Shown here: positions 3,768 through 26,979 of the stretch, one piece after another
Layout: each line of letters starts with the position of its first letter
Numbering within the stretch: the stretch's first letter is position 1
Source: Planctomycetaceae bacterium
GTDB taxonomy: Bacteria > Planctomycetota > Planctomycetia > Pirellulales > Pirellulaceae
DNA: 42,132 nt
Assembly (NCBI GenBank): GCA_005798335.1
Contig: SYJV01000355.1
Location: 1 to 42,132 of the forward strand
Direction: 5' to 3'
Position numbers and translations under genes: made by a program
Notes under the pieces: model-generated
What the model was told of the DNA's origin: nothing
Seen by the model: the letters and a program-made list of their open reading frames with translations, nothing else
Database searches by the model: none

Positions 3768-6227
3768 ATGCGATTGCTAATTTGGTCACTTGCGTTTGTG
3801 TTCTCAATGGCAAGCTACGCGAGCGTGCCAGCCAGTGAGTTCACGGTAGCACCGTCCGAAATTCGCTTATACGGCAAACATGATCGAGTTCAAATCGTCG
3901 TCACTGAAAAACTGACGCCGGGAGTTTCAAGCGATCGACTTGAAGATGTGACCAACCAAGCTAGTTTTGCTTCCAGCGATCCGTTAGTAATTGCCAGCGA
4001 CGCGGCTGGGCGATTCGTGGCAGTGGGTGACGGAACGACGACGTTGAGTATTTCGGTGGGTGGCAGAACGCAGACGATTCCAGTAACCGTGGAAAATGCG
4101 AGCGGCACGTCTGTCGATTTCATCAAGGATGTACGCCCCATATTGAACAAGGCCGGCTGTGCCGCTGCTGCATGCCATGCATCGCAGCACGGTAAAGGCG
4201 GATTTAAACTATCGGTCTTCGGGTACGATCCGCCCGCCGATTTCGAAGCGATCGCGCGAAGCAGTCGCGGTCGTCGCATGAATTTTGGCCGACCCGAAGC
4301 TAGTTTGTTGCTCAGCAAACCAGCGATGGATGTTGCCCACGGTGGTGGCAAGAAACTGGATCATGATTCCGTCGAATATCGCATCGTGCGCGACTGGATA
4401 TCCCAAGGTGCTACTCGGCCTAACAAGCGAGAAGTTCAAGTCGAAAAACTGGAGGTCTACCCTGCCGCCCGCGTTGGCCAAATGGGCATGAAGCAACAGT
4501 TGCGAGCCATCGCTCACTACGACGATGGAACCCAGCGCGATGTTTCGGCGCTAGCGCTGTATGACGCGATCGATACGGGGATTCTAAGCGCTACCGGTTC
4601 AGGCTTGGTCCGCGCGACCGGCATGGGGCAGACCGGCGTGATGGTTCGGTACGACGGTCAAGCCGCTATCTGTACCTTTGTCATCCCCTACGGCCAGCCC
4701 GCAAAATTAGCTGGCTGGAAAAACAACAACTTCATCGACGAATTGGCCGCCGCCAAGTTCCGTGACTTGGGATTAGAACCATCTGGCGTCTGCGATGATG
4801 CCACGTTTATCAGACGAGCCTTCCTGGATGCGATTGGAACTTTGCCAACGCCAGAACTCGTGCAATCGTTCATCGGGTCTTCAGATGCCAATAAACGTCA
4901 ACGGCTGGTGCAGCGATTGCTCGGGATGACAGGCGATCCCGCGCAAGATATTTACAACGATCAATATGCCGCATTTTGGACCCTGAAATGGTCGGACCTC
5001 ATTCGGAACAACAGCAAATCGGTCGGCGAACAGGGCATGTGGTCGATGCACAATTGGATCAAAAATGCGTTCCGAGAAAATCGACCGTTTGATCAATTCG
5101 TGCGCGAACTGGTGACTGCCAAGGGATCGATCTACTCGAATGGACCAGCGAATTTCTTTAGGGTGAACGGTGATTCGTCGACGCTGACCGAAGCTACCTC
5201 GCAGCTGTTTCTCGGAGTGCGGCTGGAATGCGCGAAGTGCCACCATCATCCGTTCGAGAAGTACAGCCAAGCGGATTACTACGGTATGGCAGCGTTCTTT
5301 TCGCGAGTTGGCACCAAGAACAGCGAGGACTTTGGACTGTTCGGTCGCGAAACCGTGGTCATGGTCCGTCCCACGGGCGATGTATCTCATCCCCGCACTG
5401 GCCAGCAAATGCAACCAACTCCCCTTGGCGGAAAAATCATTGATGATCCTCTTGATCGCCGGATACCTTTCGCGCAATGGTTGACCTCTCATGAAAACGA
5501 ATTCTTTGCGAAATCGGTCGTTAATCGGTACGTCGGCTATCTTCTCGGGCACGGACTGGTTGAACCCATCGACGATATGCGCAGTACCAATCCAGCCAGC
5601 AATGGTTCGCTGCTGGATCAATTGTCGCGCGACTTTGTCGAACACCAGTTCAATCTCAAGCATTTGATGTACACGATCATGACCAGCCGACTGTATGAAC
5701 TCAGTTCGCAACCCACGGTGGACAATGTCGCCGACCGTCGCTTTCATAGCCATTTTGCGGTCAAGCGATTAAGTGCCGAACCGCTGTTGGATGCAATCGA
5801 TCAAGCAACTGGCGTGCAAACGAAGTTTAATAACCTCCCGCTGGGCACGCGCGCGATCGATTTGCCAGATGCAGAATACCCGCACTACTTTTTGACGACC
5901 TTCGCCAAGCCGCGGCGAGCGAGTGTGTGCGAATGCGAACGCTCTCCAGACGCGAGTTTGTCCCAAGCGTTGCACACGATCAACGGTGATACGCTGGCCA
6001 CGAAAATCGCCGACAAGAACGGCCGCATCGCCAAGTTGCTGGCCGAGAATCGATCGCACGACGAGATTGTAAGGCAACTTTATTTGGCCTCCCTGTGCCG
6101 AGATCCGTCCAGCGAGGAACTCGCCGCCAGTCAAGACTTGTTGAAAGAATCGCCCAATCCAGCCGAGTGTTACCAGGATCTGCTGTGGGCTTTGATCAAC
6201 TCCAAGCAATTCTTGTTCGTTCATTGA
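3768..6227 (+). CDS. Ig-like / cytochrome / DUF1549 / DUF1553 exported protein
   Basis: The 819-residue product has a signal peptide (MRLLIWSLAFVFSMASYASVPA), a bacterial Ig-like domain (about 20-111), a haem-type motif CAAAACH (C131, C136, H137) followed by GKGGFKLSVFGYDP, and a second Ig-like segment (about 225-307). DUF1549 follows with CAKCHHHPFEKY (C488, C491, H492), then C-terminal DUF1553 ending in ALINSKQFLFVH. These domains occur together mostly in planctomycetes and relatives; electron transfer is plausible from the CXXCH motifs, but the substrate is unknown. The ATG at 3768 is chosen because GGAG (3755-3758) lies nine bases upstream and the signal peptide begins there; upstream in-frame ATGs lack both. 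The PPC-domain gene starts about 15 bases downstream, so the two are probably co-transcribed. It is paralogous to the gene at 33126-35399. Confidence 0.9.
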   Translation: MRLLIWSLAFVFSMASYASVPASEFTVAPSEIRLYGKHDRVQIVVTEKLTPGVSSDRLEDVTNQASFASSDPLVIASDAAGRFVAVGDGTTTLSISVGGRTQTIPVTVENASGTSVDFIKDVRPILNKAGCAAAACHASQHGKGGFKLSVFGYDPPADFEAIARSSRGRRMNFGRPEASLLLSKPAMDVAHGGGKKLDHDSVEYRIVRDWISQGATRPNKREVQVEKLEVYPAARVGQMGMKQQLRAIAHYDDGTQRDVSALALYDAIDTGILSATGSGLVRATGMGQTGVMVRYDGQAAICTFVIPYGQPAKLAGWKNNNFIDELAAAKFRDLGLEPSGVCDDATFIRRAFLDAIGTLPTPELVQSFIGSSDANKRQRLVQRLLGMTGDPAQDIYNDQYAAFWTLKWSDLIRNNSKSVGEQGMWSMHNWIKNAFRENRPFDQFVRELVTAKGSIYSNGPANFFRVNGDSSTLTEATSQLFLGVRLECAKCHHHPFEKYSQADYYGMAAFFSRVGTKNSEDFGLFGRETVVMVRPTGDVSHPRTGQQMQPTPLGGKIIDDPLDRRIPFAQWLTSHENEFFAKSVVNRYVGYLLGHGLVEPIDDMRSTNPASNGSLLDQLSRDFVEHQFNLKHLMYTIMTSRLYELSSQPTVDNVADRRFHSHFAVKRLSAEPLLDAIDQATGVQTKFNNLPLGTRAIDLPDAEYPHYFLTTFAKPRRASVCECERSPDASLSQALHTINGDTLATKIADKNGRIAKLLAENRSHDEIVRQLYLASLCRDPSSEELAASQDLLKESPNPAECYQDLLWALINSKQFLFVH

Positions 6228-6241
6228 ATGGAGCCACAAAC

Positions 6242-8350
6242 GTGACACGAGGATCGATGTTGACTCGGTTAATTACAGCGTCCCGTATTACCATGTGGAG
6301 CGTGCTGTTGGTGTTGTCGTCTCGAACGATCGCGCAAACGTCCTATCCGATGCTGATGTCGGTAGAGCCCGTGGCCGCGAGAATTGGACAATCGTCCGAG
6401 CATATCGTCAAGTCGCGGTATAGCATGCAGAGTGCCTACGAGATCTTTGTTTCCGGCACCGGAGTTCATGGAGAAGTGGTTCCGCCAAACTCTCAAGTGG
6501 ATGAGAAATCGAAATCGAGTTCCAGCGAATCCTTACGAGTGCGTTTCAATGTCGATAACGACGCGATTTCCGGAGTGCGCGATTTTCGCATCGCAACTCC
6601 CAACGGCGTCAGCACAGTTGGACAGTTGGTAATCGTTCGTGACCCGATCATTGAAGAGACTCCAGAACAGCCAACCGATGGACAACGCGTTACGCTGCCG
6701 TCGGTTCTGTGCGGGCGCATCGAAAAAGCCGAAGACGTCGATCGTTTTCGCTTTGCGATCGAACAAGGCAAATCGCTGGCGTTTCACGTGCTGTGCATGC
6801 GGCTGCAAGATCGCATCCATGACCTGCAACAGCACTCCGACCCGATCATTGTCATTCGCAACGCGATGGGGTCCACGATCGCTTCCTCGGACAACAGCTT
6901 TCGGGGCGATCCATTCATCTTCCACACGTTTGAACAAGGCGGTGAATATACGCTAGAGATTCGCGACGTTCGTTATCAAGGTAATAACTACTGGGGCTAT
7001 GCCATCGAGATCAACGATCGTCCCTTCATTTCGTCGATCTATCCGTTCGGTTTGGCGGCTGGAACCAATACGCCCGTTCAACTAATCGGTTACGGACTGG
7101 CCGAAGACGCGAGTTCTCAAATCGCTTTGCCCAAAGAAATTGATTTTGGTTCCACATTGTGGCCGGTCGGAATCGACGTTAGCTCGCGGAGTCCGATGTC
7201 GATCGTGGTTAGTCCAACAGCGCCTCAATTGGAGTCATTGTTACCCAACGACTCGCTCGACAAGTCCGAATCAGTAGTTGCTCCCGGCGGAATCAATGGT
7301 CGATTGGAATCGAATGGGGATATCGATTATTTTCAGTTCGCTGCTCACAAAGGAAATGCATTTTCGTTCGAAGTTTTTGCTAGTCGCGCACAGTCATTGC
7401 TAGACTCCCATCTGCGACTGCTGGATGCAAAAGGCAACCAACTGCAACTCAGTGACGATATTCGCATCGGCAAGCGTAATTACGCGGATTCTGCGATCGA
7501 AAACTGGGTTGCTCCCGCAGATGGTAACTATTTCTTGGAAGTGCGCGATTTGCATTTGCGTGGCGGGCTGTCATATACCTACTTTCTGAAGATATCTAAG
7601 AGCGAACCTGGTTTCTCGTTGTTTGCGGATACCGACAAGACATTGCTGACGCCGAGCACGGCCGGTGTCGTGTTTGTTCGCGCTGAAAGACGCAGTGGCG
7701 CCGACGGAGAGATTCAGCTCGGCGTCGAAGGGTTGCCTGCTGGCGTTACCGCTTCGTGCGGTCGCATTCTCGCCGGTGCTCAGGATGGTTGCATCGTGTT
7801 TCAAGCCGCACCTGACCTTAAACCTGTTCTCTCGACGATCAAGATTAAAGGTACCATGCGGTCACCCATCAACGCTGCTGCCGAAATTTCATCTTCAGCT
7901 TTGGTATACCAAGAGACCTATCAGCCCGGTGGCGGTCGAGGTCATTGGCCTGTCGATAACCACGCACTGTCGGTTGGCGTAACAAGTGACATTAGCAAAG
8001 TCGAGCTAAGTGGACATGAAATTGTTCTCAAGCCCGGTCAATCGACCCGCTTGGAAATTAATATCGAGCGCGCCGCTGGATTCGACAAGAATGTCCTGCT
8101 CGAAGTCAGCTATATGCACCTGAACACAATCTACGGCAACTCGCTTCCAGAAGGCGTCACAGTCGATACGCCTGCCAGCAACACCCTGTTAACCGCCGGC
8201 GCTACCAAGGGACATATCGTGCTCAAGTGCGCCGACAATGCACCTCAAGTATCCAAACAACAAATTGTGGTCATGGCTAACGTATCCATCAACTTCGTGA
8301 TGAAAACGACCTATGCCAGCCGTCCCGTGTTTGTGTCCGTCGAGAAATAA
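6242..8350 (+). CDS. Exported protein with two PPC domains
   Basis: This protein of about 703 residues has a signal peptide ending near SSRTIAQ. An Ig-like N-terminal region (SVEPVAARIGQ...) is followed by two pre-peptidase C-terminal (PPC) beta-sandwich domains. The PPC signatures are GRIEKAEDVDRFRFAIEQGK...GGEYTLEIRD and, later, GRLESNGDIDYFQFAAHKG...DGNYFLEVRD. The C-terminal third carries further beta-rich repeats (GLPAGV, LPEGV). PPC domains are binding or folding modules of secreted proteins; no catalytic domain is visible. GTG 6242 is preferred because GGAG at 6230 sits about nine bases before it; ATG 6257 is the alternative. It follows the DUF1549/1553 gene by 14 bases. The same pairing recurs at 30876-35399, which supports a conserved functional couple. 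Confidence 0.82.
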   Translation: MTRGSMLTRLITASRITMWSVLLVLSSRTIAQTSYPMLMSVEPVAARIGQSSEHIVKSRYSMQSAYEIFVSGTGVHGEVVPPNSQVDEKSKSSSSESLRVRFNVDNDAISGVRDFRIATPNGVSTVGQLVIVRDPIIEETPEQPTDGQRVTLPSVLCGRIEKAEDVDRFRFAIEQGKSLAFHVLCMRLQDRIHDLQQHSDPIIVIRNAMGSTIASSDNSFRGDPFIFHTFEQGGEYTLEIRDVRYQGNNYWGYAIEINDRPFISSIYPFGLAAGTNTPVQLIGYGLAEDASSQIALPKEIDFGSTLWPVGIDVSSRSPMSIVVSPTAPQLESLLPNDSLDKSESVVAPGGINGRLESNGDIDYFQFAAHKGNAFSFEVFASRAQSLLDSHLRLLDAKGNQLQLSDDIRIGKRNYADSAIENWVAPADGNYFLEVRDLHLRGGLSYTYFLKISKSEPGFSLFADTDKTLLTPSTAGVVFVRAERRSGADGEIQLGVEGLPAGVTASCGRILAGAQDGCIVFQAAPDLKPVLSTIKIKGTMRSPINAAAEISSSALVYQETYQPGGGRGHWPVDNHALSVGVTSDISKVELSGHEIVLKPGQSTRLEINIERAAGFDKNVLLEVSYMHLNTIYGNSLPEGVTVDTPASNTLLTAGATKGHIVLKCADNAPQVSKQQIVVMANVSINFVMKTTYASRPVFVSVEK

Positions 8351-23955: not shown

Positions 23956-24801
23956 CTATTTCTGTGTTGAGCCTTTGCGGCGCCTTCCCTTTGGGCTGGA
24001 CGCGTTTTCGGGTTCTCTGGCACGCAACTCGATTTCGCGCTGCAAGCGTTCTACGTGCTGGTAATACTCCTTGCGCTGCAACCAATCTGCCGCCGCGCGG
24101 TCGAGCAGAACGGTCGTCGCCGGGTGAAGCTGCAAAGCGGAAGCGGTAATCTGCGACGTTATTGGTCCTTCGATAAAGGAACGAACCGCACCAGCCTTAT
24201 TCGATCCCGTCGCGATCAACAAGATACGCCGAGCTTCCAGGATCGTGCCGACGCCCATGGTGACAGCCAATCTCGGCACTTGCTCAATCGAGTCGAAGAA
24301 CCGCGCGTTGTCGCGTACGGTTTGTTCGGTGAGCCCCTTCAATCGCGTGCGACTGCCTAGCGAAGAACCCGGTTCGTTGAAACCGATATGCCCATCGGTG
24401 CCAATGCCCAACAACTGCAAATCGATGCCGCCGGATTTGCGGAGCAGATCTTCATAGCTCGTGCAGTAACTGTCATAGTCCTCAGCCAAACCGTCAGGTA
24501 CATGACAACGGTTAGAATCTAGATCCACATGCTGAAATAAGTTAACCCCCATGAAATACCGATAAGACTGTGGGTGGTCGGCACTCAGGCCAACGTACTC
24601 ATCCAGATTAAACGTCGTAACGCGCGAGAAACTAACCGCACCTTCGCGATACATGCGGATCAATTCGCCGTACGTTCCCAGCGGCGTACCGCCTGTCGCC
24701 AAACCAAGCACACAATCGGGATTGCGCTGCACAGTCTCAGCGATCAACTCCGCCGCCCGTCGACTGACTTCCTCTGCGCTGTCCAGCATTACGATCCGCA
24801 T
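23956..24801 (-). CDS. nagB: Glucosamine-6-phosphate deaminase
   Basis: The 281-residue product converts glucosamine 6-phosphate to fructose 6-phosphate and ammonia, feeding amino sugars into glycolysis. Motifs are LGLATGGTPLGTY (phosphate loop), TFNLDEYVGL with D67, and LLGIGTDGHIGFNEPGSS with D136, H138 and E143, which match the catalytic Asp, His and Glu of the E. coli enzyme. VTMGVGTILEAR and the C-terminal HPATTVLLD also fit. The C-terminal tail is longer and basic (SPKGRRRKGSTQK). MRIVMLDSAEEV at 24801 is the natural start. A terminator-like hairpin with a U-run ends only about nine bases upstream, which raises the question of a regulated leader. The phosphofructokinase product uses fructose 6-phosphate, so the two are metabolically linked. 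Confidence 0.94.
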   Translation of the reverse strand: MRIVMLDSAEEVSRRAAELIAETVQRNPDCVLGLATGGTPLGTYGELIRMYREGAVSFSRVTTFNLDEYVGLSADHPQSYRYFMGVNLFQHVDLDSNRCHVPDGLAEDYDSYCTSYEDLLRKSGGIDLQLLGIGTDGHIGFNEPGSSLGSRTRLKGLTEQTVRDNARFFDSIEQVPRLAVTMGVGTILEARRILLIATGSNKAGAVRSFIEGPITSQITASALQLHPATTVLLDRAAADWLQRKEYYQHVERLQREIELRAREPENASSPKGRRRKGSTQK

Positions 24802-24810
24802 ACAACACCA

Positions 24811-24836
24811 AAACAAAAACCCCGAGTTTATCGGGG
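24811..24836 (-). terminator. Intrinsic-terminator-like hairpin in the nagB leader
   Basis: On the minus strand CCCCGA pairs with TCGGGG around TAAAC, followed by TTTTTGTTTT ending at 24810; nagB starts at 24801. It could terminate read-through from the operon ending at 25015 or act as an attenuator of nagB. A possible -10 TATGAT lies upstream at 24876-24871, with no good -35. Confidence 0.65.
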
Positions 24837-25014
24837 CATCACCAAACTGGAACCTTAAAAACTTTTTCAAATCATAACGTGCTGCGATCACTTAGTGGCC
24901 CAATGCCTGGCGATTCCTCGTGAATAAGCTCTTTTTCTCCACAAAATGCCGTGGGTGGAATCGCATGTTCGACAGCAGAAAGTTCGTTAGCTGAAAATTA
25001 CTTTCATCGTCCTG

Positions 25015-26979
25015 CTAATAGGGACGCAGTAGCACCTGACGGATCTCCAAGTCAGTCTCGGGATCGTGGGCCTGAATTTGCAACGTTCCGGATTCCAATC
25101 GCAAACCACTTCGCGGGTTAGTGTGGGGTGGCCGCGTATCGATCCAATCTGCAGTCTGGTAGCCATTGACCCAAGTCGCCAAATGCGGCCCCAGAGCGAC
25201 TACCGTCAAGCGAAACGGTAGGTGATCGACGGCAACTGCAGCGCGCGCCTGTAAACGATCATCGATCCCGCCGGTAGTGTATCCGTGCCGCGCACCTTTC
25301 GGATCGTACCAGGAATGGTGCAACTGAATTTCATAGCCCATCATGGTGCGCCCCGGCTCGTTGCGAATAAACAGCCCGCCATTCGTACCTGCTCGCCTGG
25401 TGCAGCCTTCCAATTGAAGTAGAAAATCTGCGAACATGTGCGGGCCATTCAGCGGCGCGTACTCAAGAGCCTCTGGGCCGCCAACGACTCGCATGGCACG
25501 ATCGGAGATGGACCACACCGCGCCCGGTTTGCTTGCAGTGGGAATTCTTCCTCTCCGTTCCCAACCGGAATAGTCGCGACCATTGAACAATGACTTGAGC
25601 TCAAGAGGTTTGAGGTTTAGACGCGAGACAGCGAATCCTTGGTTGAGTCGAATCGGTCCTCGCTTGCCTCGTGATGTTAGAGTGTGGGTGCCCGGTTGCA
25701 ACATCACAGTTCGGTCGGGCAGTACCAATTCGCCGGCTTGGGTTACACCTACACGCAACTCAAAATCTGTGAACTCGGTGGTCGTCGCGCCACCACTGAT
25801 GACGGTTTCCGGTTCAGCCGCTGACAGTTGCGCGTCCGCAAAACCGTAAGTAGTCGCGCCATCGAATAGCGCCAACCAACCATCCAGCGCTTCCTCGACG
25901 GTAATTCGGTTCGTCGGCAAACGAGAACGATTGTTCGCTTGGGCGGTTTCATTGTCGGTGGCGAGGTCATTGCCTGCTGTGAGCTGTACCGTGGCGAGCA
26001 CCAACCGAGTAACTTCGCGCGAGAACTGACTGAGCCGATTTGCGACTTGTTCGCGAGGCCGGTCGCCTGGATCGGCTTGCTCAACCATCACGACATATAC
26101 GACGGCTTCCGAGGAACCGGCTGGGTAGCACCAACCCGCCTGAACGCGCGTAAGTGGATCTGTGTCGAGCGCGCCATCCTTGAAAAAATGTTTCCCGCGC
26201 AACCCATATCGCTCGTCGGCGGTCAAAAGTGCACTCGCGGATTCCTGCAGGGAGCGACCGGGCATTTGCGGTAAAGTTGCTGAGGCAAGTTGTTGTAACA
26301 CAGATGCCATGGCAACAGTTGTCGAAGTGTTATCGCCAGTCACGTTGCGCGGTGCCAGCATATAGCGCCGCACGTGGAGATTCTTAAAAGCGGGCGAACG
26401 CGCATGAATTCGCTGAGTCAATTCCGCCGGACCGCCAAGCAGCGCGGTCGTGACATTGGCGGCCGCATTGTAAACGAGATTGGATGCCTTCTTCGAGCCC
26501 ATCATGATCATGCCGATTTGCCTAACCGTTGCCATGGACAAGCCTTGCCGAATCTCGGCGCGTTGTTCGGGCGAAAAATGAGCCACCGCTGGATGCTGGT
26601 CAGACAAAATCTCGTCGAGTCCTGCTGGCACCGCGTCGAGCGCCTGGTGATAGCGAGCGAACAGTTCTACGAGAAACGCCGTTTTAATCGCGCTGGCAGT
26701 CGGTCGAATACGGTCTGCATCGCGAGTCATCAGCGCTCGCCCGCCACTGGTGCCCAACCAAATTCCAAGTTCTAGCGGTTGACCATGTTGCAACTCGAGC
26801 TGACGAATATCCGCGGCAAGCTGCTGTTGATTGGTCGATTGGAGCCTAGCCTTGGTGATACCGTTGCTCGACGTATTGGTTTGCGCAATCGCTTGTAAAT
26901 TGCTCAGTAGAAAAACGACCCAGATCCAAGTATGCAAGGTTCTGGGCAACAGCCGAACCAGTGTCCAAAGTAGCAACAT
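25015..26979 (-). CDS. Fusion: class A beta-lactamase-like hydrolase plus DUF1080 domain, exported
   Basis: The 654-residue product has an N-terminal signal (LHTWIWVVFLLSNLQAIAQ). Residues about 50-340 resemble class A serine beta-lactamase/transpeptidase-fold proteins: SAIK (S96, K99) is the S-x-x-K nucleophile motif, ASNLVYN (about 165-171) sits where S-D-N is expected, and KDG (267-269) where K-T-G is expected. The second motif is therefore degenerate and activity is uncertain. The C-terminal ~190 residues form a DUF1080 (3-keto-disaccharide hydrolase/LamG-like) domain with SLFNGRDYSGWE, NGGLFIRNEPG, GYEIQLHHSW and WVNGYQTADW. The middle ~120 residues are beta-rich and unassigned. It is the last gene of a five-gene operon, 52 bases after the DUF1501 gene. 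The domain combination is unusual, and the joint function is unknown. Confidence 0.78.
   Translation of the reverse strand: MLLLWTLVRLLPRTLHTWIWVVFLLSNLQAIAQTNTSSNGITKARLQSTNQQQLAADIRQLELQHGQPLELGIWLGTSGGRALMTRDADRIRPTASAIKTAFLVELFARYHQALDAVPAGLDEILSDQHPAVAHFSPEQRAEIRQGLSMATVRQIGMIMMGSKKASNLVYNAAANVTTALLGGPAELTQRIHARSPAFKNLHVRRYMLAPRNVTGDNTSTTVAMASVLQQLASATLPQMPGRSLQESASALLTADERYGLRGKHFFKDGALDTDPLTRVQAGWCYPAGSSEAVVYVVMVEQADPGDRPREQVANRLSQFSREVTRLVLATVQLTAGNDLATDNETAQANNRSRLPTNRITVEEALDGWLALFDGATTYGFADAQLSAAEPETVISGGATTTEFTDFELRVGVTQAGELVLPDRTVMLQPGTHTLTSRGKRGPIRLNQGFAVSRLNLKPLELKSLFNGRDYSGWERRGRIPTASKPGAVWSISDRAMRVVGGPEALEYAPLNGPHMFADFLLQLEGCTRRAGTNGGLFIRNEPGRTMMGYEIQLHHSWYDPKGARHGYTTGGIDDRLQARAAVAVDHLPFRLTVVALGPHLATWVNGYQTADWIDTRPPHTNPRSGLRLESGTLQIQAHDPETDLEIRQVLLRPY

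Follow-up and report, generated by a model that had tools for sequence, protein, structure and literature searches.

A terminator-like hairpin just before the nagB start codon in a Planctomycetaceae genome

NagC is a DNA-binding regulator of nagB in Escherichia coli. A hairpin placed before a start codon is known from E. coli ispU, whose 5' UTR end is assigned to a stem of 6 bp with eight U residues behind it (PMC7815308). A literature search over titles and the beginnings of abstracts found no paper concerning planctomycete terminators or nagB attenuation. The locus described here lies in a window of 42,132 nucleotides (contig SYJV01000355.1 of assembly GCA_005798335.1, Planctomycetaceae bacterium), in which nagB on the minus strand is preceded by a short GC-rich hairpin with a U-rich tail. 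The original prediction regarded this hairpin as a terminator that every nagB transcript must pass if the promoter is upstream of it, implying attenuation, unless nagB started transcription within or after the stem and was nearly leaderless.

The nagB gene and the hairpin before its start

The gene nagB (23956-24801, minus strand) encodes a glucosamine-6-phosphate deaminase of 281 aa, an identity which is firm as judged from TIGR00502 (322 bits, the cut-off being 237, with the model matching from residue 1), PF01182 and the relatives. Its start is placed at the ATG at 24801, because TIGR00502 begins at residue 1, the starts in 29 other nagB loci read M-R-I/V (some with GTG or TTG), and a codon-based gene caller picked this codon; the same caller, when retrained on more sequence, picked an in-frame ATG at 24789. 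A longer N-terminus from a GTG at 24891 (311 aa) was ruled out, as both the family model and the relatives in the alignment start at 24801.

The hairpin (24819-24837, minus strand) is built of the arms GCCCCGA (24837-24831) and TCGGGGT (24825-24819), which enclose the five-base loop TAAAC (24830-24826) and form seven pairs, six Watson-Crick and one G-U, with a dG of -11.3. A U run, read from the sequence as T5-G-T4 (24810-24819, minus strand), contains T5 at 24819-24815, a G and T4 at 24813-24810, and is separated from the ATG (24801-24799) by eight bases (24809-24802). As structure and position, the hairpin is confirmed: the six-base-pair GC-rich stem and the U5GU4 run of the original prediction are present, with the G-U pair in addition, and the closeness to the nagB start holds, the gap being eight bases and not about nine. 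A GC-rich, short-loop hairpin with a U-rich tract directly after the stem is what defines an intrinsic terminator, and the stem, dG and U run agree with the usual description of one, as had been claimed.

Thermodynamic folding from six different 5' ends gave a probability of at least 0.87 for every stem pair, with the 5' arm partly paired before the 3' arm is made and the terminator form winning once the 3' arm exists. The competing antiterminator that attenuation would call for did not appear: no mutually exclusive structure was found by this purely thermodynamic folding, and a protein, an sRNA or a ribosome might still act. In three folded transcripts, the nucleotides that immediately precede the nagB ATG (24808-24802, minus strand) are predicted to pair for the most part with the beginning of the coding sequence or with distant spacer sequence, a pairing that could dampen the start of nagB translation.

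The spacer, the upstream genes and the relatives

A 213-nt spacer (24802-25014, minus strand) lies between the stop codon of the upstream gene and nagB, and the hairpin stands in it 177 nt after the stop. The upstream gene (25015-26979, minus strand), which has a weak Beta-lactamase2 match and a 3-keto-disaccharide hydrolase domain, is the last of five close-packed minus-strand ORFs running from 35399 down to 25015; their gaps of 4-52 nt suggest a putative operon, and the Pfam families PSCyt1, PSCyt2, PSD1 and DUF1501 occur in the neighbourhood, as would be expected of a planctomycete. Among the matches listed from 60 genomes, the only full-length homologue of the upstream gene is its own copy, and the best partial matches listed cover residues 351-653 (304-653 by tblastn); by these matches the upstream neighbour is lineage-specific. 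Its stop is placed as in 18 of 19 homologues (with 1-7 query residues left out of the alignment and the stop following 2-20 codons later), while the nineteenth (L071) runs off its locus. The frame stays open for 40 codons past the TAG (25017-25015) and closes at a TAA that precedes the stem by 54 nt (24892-25014, minus strand). A premature stop that cut off an ancestral extension was ruled out by the 18 homologues ending near the present stop, and such an extension is also disfavoured because such frames are common, 241 of 923 genes remaining open for 40 codons or more past their stop.

In 9 of 14 congeners (G001, G002, G005, G007, G008, G009, G010, G012 and G014), a gene for ThiL, identified by TIGR01379 in the G009 copy, is divergent from nagB and adjoins it or lies within about 3 kb (loci L021, L011, L040, L042, L043, L044, L046, L048 and L050, with a gene between the two in L040 and L044). 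In the remaining five (G003, G004, G006, G011 and G013), the sequence examined around nagB contains no thiL, and the NagB most similar to that of the window belongs to G003. The window's genome carries its thiL on another contig, C142, where a large gene on the same strand adjoins it. As these five congeners, including G003, are also without thiL in the sequence examined, the parting of nagB from thiL is not peculiar to the window's genome and may be older. The window's upstream gene was seen beside nagB in none of the congener stretches examined, and the junction of the gene run with nagB would be a rearrangement of the window's lineage. In the congener G009 (L046), a shortened second nagB-like frame (6884-7438) directly follows nagB (5953-6756), apparently by tandem duplication.

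A NagB match was found in 59 of the 60 genomes searched, and the leaders were read in the 29 listed loci other than the window's own (14 from the same genus), over up to 400 nt upstream of each start and over only 157 nt in L028; seven loci of named relatives, at best 57% identical, lie outside this comparison. By a rule laxer than the strict one given below, the 100 nt nearest the start contain a terminator-like hairpin in none of these 29 leaders, and weak hairpins (dG -3.6 to -7.0) occur in three of them, 118-282 nt upstream. The leader DNA has no match in any of the 14 congeners. Two observations had been named that would together speak against attenuation, a transcription start between the U run and the ATG and a lack of stem conservation at other nagB genes, and the latter is what the relatives sampled present. 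The nearest NagB sampled is 69% identical, the sampling reaching no more recent relatives, so that a young element is possible. A repeat or mobile hairpin was ruled out, as a search of the assembly gives a single occurrence of the T-tailed pattern.

Intrinsic terminators of the same genome and the role of chance

Terminator-like hairpins were counted in 121 pieces of the same genome (together 1,476,002 bases, out of roughly 8.46 Mb) with 984 called genes, whose starts are computed and not annotated, and 1402 oriented intergenic stretches. The strict rule demanded at least 6 pairs, at least 4 of them G-C, a dG of -8 or below, and at least 4 T in 5 plus 7 T in 10. Thirty hairpins were obtained, 14 of them between genes or where a piece ends and 16 within called genes; as 4 of these 16 have a dG of -14.5 or below, strength alone is no mark of function. 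Eleven lie in sense orientation behind a stop codon, and ten of them, in 691 after-stop stretches, are located 35-58 nt after the stop with a dG of -14.8 to -25.0 (two each in L096, L171 and L175, one each in L086, L135, L114 and L157). The shuffle mean for the zone of 30-60 nt after the stop, which was chosen after the sites had been seen, is 0.13, and 0 of 60 shuffles reach ten. Under a medium setting 17 tandem sites were counted against a shuffle mean of 8.2, and under a loose one 106 against 80.5, both outside the argument. The rarity of the strict terminators and their narrow zone of 35-58 nt may mean that transcription mostly ends in other ways, and as clear intrinsic terminators are few and narrowly placed in the sampled genome, hairpins outside that zone call for caution.

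The eleventh after-stop site is the nagB hairpin, which departs in placement (177 nt) and in dG (-11.3) from the genome's own terminators, a yardstick made here and outside the usual definition. It is not one of the clear terminators and may be accidental. A chance origin, with no selected role and little effect, is possible because after-stop sites outside 30-60 nt number 1 against a shuffle mean of 1.48, with 52 of 60 shuffles reaching 1; at a dG of -11 or below, the class has 1 site against a mean of 0.50, reached by 24 of 60 shuffles, and shuffling over all 467 tandem intergenic stretches sampled (10 shuffles) leads to an expectation of 0.7 strict sites. The strict sites inside called genes and the absence of the hairpin from the relatives are also in keeping with such an origin. 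On the other side, dinucleotide shuffling of the 213-nt spacer yields a hairpin as strict in only 88 of 20000 cases, and one with a dG of -11 or below in 27 of 20000, and the hairpin is locally unusual; moreover, its physical make-up would be expected to halt polymerase to some degree whatever its origin. The fold of the 76-nt region named in the original prediction is little better than that of shuffled sequence (z -1.11, equalled by 27 of 200 shuffles), and that of the whole spacer is no better (z 0.16). Chance is regarded as a possible but less likely explanation, and the hairpin may have arisen without selection.

Four strict hairpins in tandem gaps end within 60 nt before a called start, against 0.20 in shuffles. 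The three besides nagB (L096, L157 and L175) end 25, 34 and 42 nt before the start, in short spacers and 38-51 nt after the preceding stop. In L096, a strong hairpin lies 38 nt after the stop and leaves 25 nt to the called start of a gene with an Mpt_N domain (from residue 18), while the starts are less sure in L157, where the domain begins at residue 45, and in L175, which has no Pfam match. As these three occupy the ordinary post-stop place, genes right behind a terminator are not peculiar to nagB. Strict hairpins are absent from the 244 divergent leaders of the genome sample (each divergent gap counted both ways; shuffle mean 1.18), where any leader hairpin would have to be a 5' element.

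Transcription into nagB and comparison with known systems

With moderate confidence, the hairpin is best explained as a lineage-specific, terminator-competent element between the close-packed minus-strand run ending at 25015 and nagB, which would partly stop incoming transcription and would not be a dedicated, conserved switch of nagB. Polymerase would arrive from upstream, either by read-through of the gene run or after initiation in the spacer; part of this transcription would stop at T5GT4 and the remainder would enter nagB, which might be expressed by read-through, from a spacer promoter or from a promoter overlapping the hairpin. The usual terminator features and the formation of the stem from all six 5' ends support this explanation, as do the lack of such a hairpin in the last 100 nt of the other leaders, the location of thiL elsewhere, the upstream gene not being found beside nagB in congeners, and the terminators that stand near starts elsewhere in the genome in the ordinary 3' place. 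Against it are the distance after the stop and the dG, both unlike those of the ten clear terminators, and the absence of thiL near nagB in five congeners as well, G003 among them. If the hairpin acts at all, it would act on incoming transcription, and chance is the main rival to the terminator reading.

An attenuator of nagB is unlikely. Transcription would begin at a promoter in the spacer, for example at the possible -10 hexamer TATGAT (24871-24876, minus strand; 5 of 6 matches, 33 nt upstream of the stem), and the leader would end at the hairpin unless a signal permitted read-through, an arrangement which the position of the hairpin just before the ATG and the ispU precedent (PMC7815308) would suit. 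The best -35 element matches at 3 of 6, at 19 nt, and no consensus sigma-70-type promoter was found on the minus strand of the spacer. Rfam gave 0 matches at the gathering score in the window, the sub-threshold ones near the leader being rimP (21.5 against 47), RsmY (18.8 against 57, E 0.017), PsrR1 and WT1-AS_5, each falling far short of its cut-off. Together with the 29 leaders, the folding and the 244 divergent leaders, these results give no support to the attenuation proposed for nagB. The proposed choice between an attenuated and a nearly leaderless nagB also omits a third option, namely partial read-through of a moderate hairpin from upstream. A lineage-specific attenuator that came from the joining of the run and nagB, in which transcripts from TATGAT at 24876 would end at the hairpin unless a protein, a small RNA or an initiating ribosome prevented it, is considered very unlikely.

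It is highly improbable that the hairpin is the 3' end of an unannotated short spacer transcript, a small RNA or a short ORF unrelated to nagB. A 24-codon ORF (ATG at 24966 to 24892) does end 54 nt before the stem, within the 35-58 nt zone, and RsmY scores weakly over 24816-24934 (18.8 bits, E 0.017 for 401 bases), but this is far under the threshold of 57, the containing 40-codon frame codes neutrally (-0.07; 92% of gene ends and 30% of open intergenic stretches score higher), frames of this length beyond a stop are common, as noted above, and the congeners hold no DNA match. Hardly credible is a DNA operator for a repressor, to which the perfect palindrome CCCCGA-N5-TCGGGG close to the start and 20 further genomic copies with one mismatch (9 for a reversed control pattern) would lend themselves, but the exact copy is the only one in the assembly and the 29 leaders contain no T-tailed hairpin within 100 nt, in a scan covering T-tailed forms only.

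Compared with described systems, the preferred explanation, a terminator-competent hairpin acting on incoming transcription, shares with NagR/YvoA control the same target gene, nagB, but those proteins are DNA-binding regulators acting at promoters, and none of the present results points to a site in common. With 5'-UTR attenuators, of which the E. coli ispU leader (PMC7815308) is an example, it shares a short stem and a U run before the start codon, and it differs in having neither an antiterminator by folding nor conservation in the relatives sampled. The ten clear terminators of the same genome are stronger and lie 35-58 nt after the stop, unlike the nagB hairpin, for which a terminator role is predicted. 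On its own this hairpin matters little, being one more of the terminator-like kind, and the useful by-product is the placement yardstick. With its GC-rich stem, short loop and U-rich tail directly after the stem, it resembles an intrinsic (Rho-independent) terminator, and is best read as an ordinary, perhaps even accidental, stop of transcription rather than as a new regulator.
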